IMG/VR virus record: IMGVR_UViG_3300043392_000027
Location: 1-29,917 of that record
From: a virus
Direction: 5' to 3' (one strand)
Length of the DNA stretch: 29,917 nt
Part shown: positions 21,283 through 22,600 of the stretch, piece by piece
Layout: each line of letters starts with the position of its first letter
Numbering within the stretch: the first letter of the stretch is position 1
Position numbers and translations under genes: made by a program
The notes under the pieces: model-generated
What the model was told of the DNA's origin: nothing
Databases searched by the model: none
Seen by the model: the letters and a program-made list of their open reading frames with translations, nothing else

Positions 21283-21662
21283 CAGGACTCCTTTGGATTC
21301 ATGCGTTCAAGGTTGCGGAGAACATCCGCACGAGAATGTGTTGTCTTTCCAGACCGTTTGACATTTGCGTCAGGCCATGGCCGTTGAAGAGGTTTGATTT
21401 TCTTCTTCGAATTGATTTGATGCGTTAGATCGAACAGCTCCGCCATGAGCATCCACTCATGTGTGACGGGATACTTCCAATCGTTGAGTGCAGCTTGCAA
21501 CCAGGAAGAAGGGTCGCGAAACAAAATGGCAGTCAAGTGGATTGCTTCACGCCAGGAGATACTCTCTCCAACTTCATCCCACGAAAGGTTGTAACGACTC
21601 CGAAAGTCTGCGCGAATCTCTGAAGGATAAGACTCGGCAATCTCTAGGAGCCGGAAGATTCC
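21282..21662 (-). CDS. Tail assembly chaperone, frameshift extension (GT-type)
   Basis: The -1 frame relative to the gene at 21644-21904 stays open from before that gene's stop to 21282, adding 126 residues. It begins GIFRLLEIAESYPSEIRADF and continues SRYNLSWDEVGESISWREAI, then HLTAILFRDPSSWLQAALND. This is typical of the T part of long-tailed-phage tail chaperones. There is no good independent start, so it is probably made only as a fusion of 81 + 126 = 207 residues. The fusion product helps wrap tail-tube subunits on the tape measure. Confidence 0.85.
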   Translation of the reverse strand, partial: GIFRLLEIAESYPSEIRADFRSRYNLSWDEVGESISWREAIHLTAILFRDPSSWLQAALNDWKYPVTHEWMLMAELFDLTHQINSKKKIKPLQRPWPDANVKRSGKTTHSRADVLRNLERMNPKES

Positions 21663-21904
21663 CCCATCGTGACCCCGTTAGTCCAGGCTTTGATGATGTC
21701 GCCAACCTCAGATAGTGGCTTTTCATCGAGTGCTTTCAACTCTTTTGAATCTTCACCAAGTGTTAGCTCGAGAACTAGGAATGCTGCATCAACATCGTTC
21801 TCAGCTTTACGAGATTTGCGGACTACCCCTGAAGGGATGTTTTCAAACTTAGGAATGGCGAAGTCTTTGCCTTTGTGTTCGAAGTGAAACTTTTCTGCGG
21901 ACAT
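21644..21904 (-). CDS. Tail assembly chaperone (G-type)
   Basis: 86 residues starting MSAEKFHFEHKGKDFAIPKF, with VDAAFLVLELTLGEDSKELK and ending in a TAG after SSGS. Position between major tail protein and tape measure, small acidic make-up and overlap with a second frame identify it as the G protein of the G/GT pair. AAGGAG lies 6 bases before the ATG. Ribosomes that slip at 21659-21665 produce the longer GT form. Confidence 0.88.
   Translation of the reverse strand: MSAEKFHFEHKGKDFAIPKFENIPSGVVRKSRKAENDVDAAFLVLELTLGEDSKELKALDEKPLSEVGDIIKAWTNGVTMGESSGS
21659..21665 (-). promoter_or_regulatory. Programmed -1 frameshift site GGGGGAA
   Basis: In the G frame the codons read ATG GGG GAA, and five G then AA lie five codons before the stop. 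A slip of one base back at GGG joins the G frame to the open T frame. GGGGGAA is, to my knowledge, a usual slippery sequence in actinophage tail chaperone genes. The conserved frame order supports the call. Confidence 0.82.
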
Positions 21905-21933
21905 GATGTCTCCTTAGTGCGGTTTGTTAGGAA

Positions 21934-21985
21934 GTGCGGACGAGGGGTAACCAGGGCCGGTGAGTCCGCACAACACCGGCCCTGG
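21934..21985 (-). other. Predicted H-type RNA pseudoknot / hairpin after the major tail gene
   Basis: On the - strand RNA a perfect 12-bp stem (21985-21974 with 21962-21951) encloses an 11-base loop. Eight loop bases (GTGCGGAC, 21971-21964) are perfectly complementary to GTCCGCAC downstream (21941-21934), with joining loops of 2, 1 and 9 bases. It starts 3 bases after the tandem TAA TAA stop of the major tail gene. A second loop complement, CCGCAC (21922-21917), lies just before the ribosome-binding site of the chaperone gene. It could be a terminator, an mRNA-stability element or a translational control. Confidence 0.6.
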
Positions 21986-21991
21986 GGTTTA

Positions 21992-22516
21992 TTACTCGAA
22001 CTCGCTAAAGAAAGCGTCCGAGGTACGACCATCAGTCGCATAAGCAGTAACGGTTACTCCATACATGAGAGCTTCACCGTTAGCGATGGTCTGAGCTTCA
22101 ACAGCTAGAACTTCACCGGAAGGGATGTAGTGACGGATGACCTTGTCACCATCAACAACATCGATGACGAAAGACTTGCGTCCACCAGTAGATGCTGGGT
22201 TGACTTCAATCTTTCCGCCGACCATGGTTGCACCAAAGTATAGTTCCAGAACTGCCTCGTTGGTTTCAAGAAGCGAGAAGGTGAAAGTTTCAGTTGCTTC
22301 GGTCACAACTTCACGAACGAGGTCAGCGTTCTGCCATCCACGGATTTGGTTGGTGGACTTGTCCAGAGCGTGAGCGATACCGTCAGCGGACACGTAGCCA
22401 AGCTCGGTGAATCCGGTAAGTACTGAGTCTGATGCGGTTGGTGCGGTTGCAGTGGTGGCACCGACGTAGCACTTGCCTGTAATTCCCACCACAACTGAAT
22501 CGGCTGAGAGAGCCAT
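21992..22516 (-). CDS. Major tail protein
   Basis: 174 residues, beta-rich, beginning MALSADSVVVGITGKCYVGA, with LGYVSADGIAHALDKSTNQI, GWQNADLVREVVTEATETFT and NGEALMYGVTVTAYATDGRT. This matches tail-tube proteins of actinophage siphoviruses. Its place just before the chaperone pair and tape measure is diagnostic. TTGGAG precedes the ATG. It ends in a tandem TAA TAA stop, then a strong RNA structure, and is preceded by an intrinsic terminator, so its mRNA segment is bracketed by structures. No extra Ig-like domain is present. Confidence 0.9.
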   Translation of the reverse strand: MALSADSVVVGITGKCYVGATTATAPTASDSVLTGFTELGYVSADGIAHALDKSTNQIRGWQNADLVREVVTEATETFTFSLLETNEAVLELYFGATMVGGKIEVNPASTGGRKSFVIDVVDGDKVIRHYIPSGEVLAVEAQTIANGEALMYGVTVTAYATDGRTSDAFFSEFE

Positions 22517-22534: not shown

Positions 22535-22563
22535 AACGAAAAACACCCTCGGTCGAGAGTGTT
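22535..22563 (-). terminator. Intrinsic terminator just before the major tail gene
   Basis: On the - strand AACACTCTC-GACC-GAGGGTGTT (9 bp with one T-G pair) is followed by TTTCGTTT, together a five-T run. It lies between the tail-terminator gene and the major tail gene, only 19 bases before the latter's ATG. A second small palindrome TGGGC-AAA-GCCCA lies at 22568-22580. There is little room for a promoter after it, so it is probably a partial terminator or an RNA-processing point. Confidence 0.7.
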
Positions 22564-22600
22564 GAGGTGGGCAAAGCCCAATCTGAGTGCGGTCAGAAAA

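Follow-up and report, generated by a model that had tools for sequence, protein, structure and literature searches.

The junction element lies on the minus strand of a viral DNA of 29,917 nucleotides (nt) (IMG/VR record IMGVR_UViG_3300043392_000027, positions 1 to 29,917; this whole stretch is hereafter the window), inside the 87 nt that separate the stop codon of a major tail protein (MTP) gene from the start codon of a tail assembly chaperone gene (Table 1). The element comprises a stem of 12 perfect pairs (21951-21985) closed by an 11-base loop (21963-21973). Eight loop bases are perfectly complementary to a segment that follows the stem after a 9-base linker, and the resulting H-type pseudoknot, with stems of 12 and 8 bp, has joining loops of 2, 1 and 9 nt. 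The stem starts 3 bases past the second TAA of the tandem MTP stop and 6 bases past the first. A preliminary description of this DNA had reported each of these features, and each is present. Of the loop complements, it had recorded the proximal one and a second one next to the Shine-Dalgarno sequence, both of which are there, but it missed a third, GTCCGCA, located on the chaperone start codon. Because every partner pairs with the same loop bases, only one of the possible pseudoknots can exist at a time.

Table 1. Junction features in the window. Energies of the partners with the loop are simple duplex estimates without pseudoknot entropy.
Feature	Position	Strand	Basis or energy
Major tail protein (MTP) gene	21992..22516	-	phrog_117, E 6.4e-38
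MTP tandem stop, TAA TAA	21989-21994 (first 21992-21994, second 21989-21991)	-	sequence
Stem 1, 5' arm CCAGGGCCGGTG	21974..21985	-	sequence scan
Shared loop segment GTGCGGAC, 5' strand of every alternative second stem	21964..21971	-	
Stem 1, 3' arm CACCGGCCCTGG	21951..21962	-	sequence scan
Partner 1 (P1) GTCCGCAC, 8 bp with loop, proximal pseudoknot	21934..21941	-	-15.1 kcal/mol
Partner 2 CCGCAC, 6 bp with loop, directly 5' of chaperone Shine-Dalgarno	21917..21922	-	-11.6 kcal/mol
Chaperone Shine-Dalgarno AAGGAG	21910..21915	-	sequence, by eye
Partner 3 GTCCGCA, 7 bp with loop, covers G of ATG and codons 2-3	21896..21902	-	-13.3 kcal/mol
Tail assembly chaperone gene, presumed target	21644..21904	-	phrog_8595, E 1.6e-12

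Both strands of the window were scanned for a perfect stem of at least 9 pairs whose loop has a perfect complement of at least 7 nt within 45 nt. The junction element is the sole match, and 60 dinucleotide shuffles of the minus strand give 0.017 matches per window. The stem hairpin has an estimated energy of -27.5 kcal/mol. When the window and 15 relatives (from L001-L098) were compared with the 4227 models of Rfam, no match reached a family's gathering threshold. WCCGCAC sites are in weak excess across the window (14 versus 7.6 expected). One ACCGCAC copy (22587-22593) lies just upstream of a terminator-like hairpin with a T-run at 22542-22563, minus strand, in the leader of the MTP gene.

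Occurrence in actinobacterial phages

A DNA-level search of a phage collection with the junction returned no match, and relatives were therefore sought by protein. Scanning viral contigs with the MTP protein yields 13 loci. An equally identical counterpart of the closest relative (L002, 90% identical) occurs in an Aurantimicrobium minutum genome record (L015). This is a hint, though not proof, that the window's host belongs to the A. minutum group. More loci were collected with the MTP proteins of Arthrobacter phage Abidatro, Microbacterium phage FlameThrower and Gordonia phages Obliviate, CheeseTouch, Lollipop1437 and Vendetta, and an alignment of the window's clade and named phage records supplied others. 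The element is found in phages or prophages of Gordonia, Arthrobacter, Microbacterium, Corynebacterium, Mycobacterium and Aurantimicrobium.

Conservation was assessed with 197 loci that include an MTP end, of which 194 are usable and reduce to 103 non-redundant regions (less than 80% alike). In a scan for at least 8 Watson-Crick stem pairs and, within 70 nt, an exact complement of the loop at least 6 nt long, 89 of the 103 regions and 178 of the 194 loci give a match. The same scan finds 8, 7 and 7 of 103 in shuffled regions, 18 of 102 inside the MTP gene and 16 of 96 at 440-700 nt downstream. Because regions without the element can pass so permissive a scan by chance, as these controls indicate, the count of 89 is somewhat generous; of the 89, 84 have stems of at least 10 Watson-Crick pairs, and in 80 the loop complement is at least 7 nt long. 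Relatives that keep the stem and lose the loop complementarity, which the preliminary description had named as the outcome that would speak against a pseudoknot, are thus generally not what is seen. The exception, L177 in the window's clade, has a stem and no loop partner and represents a natural stem-only case.

The 14 negative regions include two Cutibacterium phage records, Streptococcus phage Javan144, phiC31, Catfish and several loci with a different sequence after the MTP gene. In Javan144 and phiC31, the gap is short or absent. Three other negatives, of the Abidatro or FlameThrower type (L031, L036, L062), have the stem with a weaker complement or a truncated end, and the stem-only L177 is also among the 14.

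The gap itself was studied at 174 loci (138 distinct gaps), which remain from 196 after removal of 3 that run off within the MTP gene and 19 without a chaperone start by our calling rule. Among these 19, the element is visible by eye in several (for example, L127, L138, L144, L145, L149, L163, L167 and L189) and is lacking in L018, L019, L026, L055, L063 and L094; L177 also belongs to this group. Tests of the loop used 75 of 82 representatives, leaving out L020, L054, L098, L111, L113, L184 and L195. L184 and L195 carry the element by eye, and the automatic stem call is wrong there. In a subclade with TGCGGC loops (L187, L188, L191-L193, L196-L198), a second GC-rich hairpin separates the stem from the first partner, and the L057 and L060 junctions have extra hairpin-like sequence before or after the first partner.

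Variable loops and their partners

The letters of the loop differ among phages, and the pairing is kept. Loops include GTGCGGAC (window), AGCGGTC, TGCGGC, CGGGAGCC, CGGGAACC, GCGGGGGCC, TGGCAGGTCC, TGCACCGGGCC and TGGTGGGTT, each with its own downstream complement. Because a MAFFT alignment of 16 junctions put some partners in the wrong place, covariation was judged from clade permutations and shuffles rather than counted in that alignment. Loops of 10 clades, unevenly filled with 40 to 1 representatives, were set against the windows of other clades in 20,000 permutations. The mean duplex energy by clade of the loop with the P1 window is -17.9 kcal/mol in cis versus -10.1 permuted, and that of the loop with the start window (-18 to +9 of the chaperone gene) is -15.0 versus -9.0; none of the 20,000 permutations was as low in either case. 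The junctions therefore combine a stem with a loop-downstream helix kept by compensatory change, as is expected of an H-type pseudoknot.

The loop usually has more than one partner. Between the stem and +9, the 75 representatives contain a mean of 1.97 exact loop complements of at least 6 nt, versus 0.20 in shuffles. At least one such copy is present in 73 of 75, at least two in 55 and at least three in 18, and a copy reaches past -20 in 60 (summed over clades). In the window's clade, the copies are concentrated in the gap, with 3.87 per 100 nt; the density is 0.16 within the chaperone open reading frame (ORF) and 0.17 over the upstream 700 nt. They occupy a proximal position, a position that is on the ribosome-binding site or slightly ahead of it, and positions +2 to +9, within the start codon and codons 2-3. 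Three copies are present in mycobacteriophage TM4, where the last reaches the Shine-Dalgarno sequence, and two in Che8.

The copies near the start codon track the loop. In the window's clade, where 3 of 58 gaps could not be typed, GCGGAC loops go with TCC at codon 2 in 6 gaps and with ACC in none, versus 1 TCC and 19 ACC for G[CT]GGTC loops. When loop segments are defined by P1 alone, as is possible in 62 of the 75 representatives, 54 of the 62 find a partner in their own start region with no more than 2 differences, versus 99 of 620 in cross-clade trials. The differences in these start partners turn a Watson-Crick pair into G-U in 22 of 38 cases, versus 9.0 expected of random differences (binomial p 6e-6, with ancestry ignored). 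The loop is thus complementary to the start region of the next gene, with conserved pairing, in most clades, the Lollipop1437 and Vendetta groups being exceptions. These copies lend support to one of the three roles offered in the preliminary description, that further loop complements serve to control chaperone translation. In Lollipop1437 (group junctions L024, L099-L110), the gene that follows the element encodes a virion structural protein, the chaperone gene comes one gene later, and the group lacks the start-region copy.

The loop and its partners form inverted and direct repeats, and could in principle be operator-like sites that act at the level of DNA. The excess of G-U among the differences is not explained by such sites, nor is the strict strand and order of the parts relative to the genes, and a DNA-level function is highly improbable.

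A candidate switch for chaperone translation

The position of the element bears on which gene it affects. The stem begins a median of 11 nt past the MTP stop (quartiles 6 and 14), which is about where the front edge of a ribosome standing on the stop codon would be. This distance is variable, however, reaching 112 nt in L060 and 67 nt in Vendetta, and an extra ORF lies ahead of the stem in L023 and in relatives of CheeseTouch. In both L060 and L023, a partner still adjoins the ATG. This arrangement points to an element anchored to the chaperone start rather than to the MTP stop. Copies close to the start codon are more firmly anchored than the rest of the element, which makes the chaperone gene the presumed target.

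A pseudoknot a few bases past a stop codon could also be a recoding signal that leads to an extended tail protein. The preliminary description had judged recoding unlikely for want of a slippery heptamer, and that judgment holds more widely: no representative (0 of 75) has an in-frame XXXYYYZ in the last 10 MTP codons, a screen that covers XXXYYYZ only and not +1 sites such as CCC_UGA, and the MTP stop is doubled in the window. Alternatively, the GC-rich hairpin might be an intrinsic terminator or attenuator that lowers transcription into the chaperone gene, as in the graded termination suggested earlier, and T-runs do follow it in some relatives of Abidatro. However, a stretch of 8 nt with at least 5 T directly follows the stem in just 8 of the 75 representatives. 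In the window, the stem is followed by TTACCCCT, with no U-tract, and is not called by a terminator scan, which admits loops of 3-8 only. Because slippery heptamers are absent and U-tracts rare, termination is very unlikely, and recoding is barely credible.

The pseudoknot might instead act on mRNA stability or processing, by stopping exonucleases, by shielding the MTP message, or by marking a cleavage site. The great stability of the stem and its usual closeness to the MTP stop fit this idea, as do the Lollipop- and Vendetta-type loci, in which only the proximal partner is clear. It leaves unexplained the start-codon copies that track the loop clade by clade, the G-U bias at the start, and stems as far from the MTP stop as those in L060 and L023. 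The mRNA protection put forward in the preliminary description does not by itself account for the start-region copies, and as the principal role of the element it is unlikely. The element may protect the MTP message in addition, and such protection is its likeliest role in clades without a start-region copy.

In other systems, coat proteins or ribosomal proteins autoregulate by binding RNA. The pseudoknot could similarly be the binding site of an autoregulatory protein (the tail tube protein, the chaperone or a host factor) that represses the chaperone gene. The site is located between two tail genes, and such a protein could be the trigger of the switch described below. However, the letters of the loop and partners differ so widely among clades that sequence recognition would have to coevolve with them, and we regard this explanation as quite improbable.

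Taken together, the comparisons lead us to propose that the late tail-operon mRNA probably contains, at this junction, a structured cis-acting RNA element that regulates chaperone translation, with one loop common to mutually exclusive pseudoknots. The structure (the stem, the pairing of loop with P1, the pairing of loop with the start region in most clades, and the competition for the same loop bases) is well supported by sequence comparison. We infer that these pairings form in the cell, that the start-region pairing is repressive, and that P1 is a decoy. The long stem would present the loop, and one downstream partner would be paired at a time. Pairing of the loop with the start region would keep ribosomes off the chaperone start, an off state. 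P1, which is transcribed earlier and is usually stronger, would take up the loop and leave the chaperone start free, an on state. The phage might thereby set chaperone synthesis apart from that of the upstream MTP gene. Among the 75 representatives, the stronger partner is P1 in 47 and the start region (-15 to +9) in 17, and the two lie no more than 0.5 kcal/mol apart in 11. Since the two energies are often alike, a tunable mixture seems likelier than a lock, and candidates for tipping the balance are folding kinetics, ribosomes ending on the MTP gene, and a bound protein.

Several observations weigh against this switch or limit it. The Lollipop1437 and Vendetta groups have weak start-region copies or none: the Vendetta start window has no cis preference, and the Lollipop1437 loop pairs with its own start no better than with that of TM4. 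In the Abidatro group, an exact start-region copy occurs in only 6 of 13, and 24 of the 75 representatives do not singly beat 95% of the other-clade start windows. The copy in L002 lies upstream of the -15 to +9 window, where the null is not beaten (p 0.47). Loop swaps between the sisters L154 and L155, or between the window and L138, weaken the proximal pairing one way only. The codon 2 association and the G-U count ignore shared ancestry, and a few relatives do without the element. Also, copies 5' of the Shine-Dalgarno sequence, such as partner 2 in the window, might help ribosomes rather than block them. The pseudoknot of the plasmid gene repZ is an activator, under the control of a leader peptide and an antisense RNA; by analogy, an activating role is conceivable here, especially where a copy is located 5' of the Shine-Dalgarno sequence.

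Related elements and significance

The closest parallels are translational switches. A translational pseudoknot that works as a molecular switch is described for repZ of ColIb-P9 (IncI-alpha) and repA of IncL/M plasmids (studies cited in PMC10724649). There, a hairpin loop pairs at the ribosome-binding region of the next gene, as is proposed here. In contrast, the loop at the phage junction has several rival partners, often over the start codon, and the upstream gene encodes the MTP. The SAS/ESAS sequences of Cluster K mycobacteriophages are likewise short sequences at start codons with a presumed role in translation initiation, and about half have an inverted repeat just upstream; SAS consists of one constant 13-bp sequence that occurs at many genes (PMC3203893). 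The sequence of the junction element, by contrast, varies by phage and precedes one gene, and its loop, not the repeat arms, pairs. Inspection by eye reveals no SAS/ESAS sequence (GGGATAGGAGCCC) upstream of the window's chaperone start. TM4, a Cluster K phage, carries the junction element between its MTP gene and gp15.

Listeria phage PSA has a site that also adjoins the end of a major tail gene, a +1 shift at CCC_UGA in the tail-shaft gene tsh (PMC5009743). The preliminary description had placed a recoding pseudoknot near the PSA tail-protein stop, but this was mistaken, since the stimulatory pseudoknot of PSA is that of the capsid gene (PMC5009743). No loop copy is apparent by eye at the start of the next gene in the PSA stretch. 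In phage Giles, GenBank annotates a "pseudoknot RNA" (NC_009993.2, 10907-10974; L201 3908-3975) at the junction before the tail assembly chaperone gene. Unlike the junction element, it overlaps the annotated chaperone start and coding region, and by eye it is a hairpin with a small loop. We found no publication behind this annotation.

No description of the element was found in the open-access literature, a search that did not cover subscription papers. Pseudoknots that control translation are already known; as far as we have checked, one loop with multiple rival partners at a phage junction is undescribed. More tentatively, the junction element may exemplify a widespread type of phage RNA switch that has no name yet. 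In it, a single loop would face a ladder of rival copies extending into coding sequence, and the switch would couple chaperone output to tail-tube translation or assembly in phages whose hosts are several different actinobacteria.

For a tail to be assembled, tube protein and chaperone must be made in proportion, and we met no account in the open-access literature of how their ratio is set at this junction. The element is a candidate for that control point. Its conservation across several actinobacterial host genera offers a control point that is directly testable, together with an RNA architecture in which rival partners would compete for a single loop.
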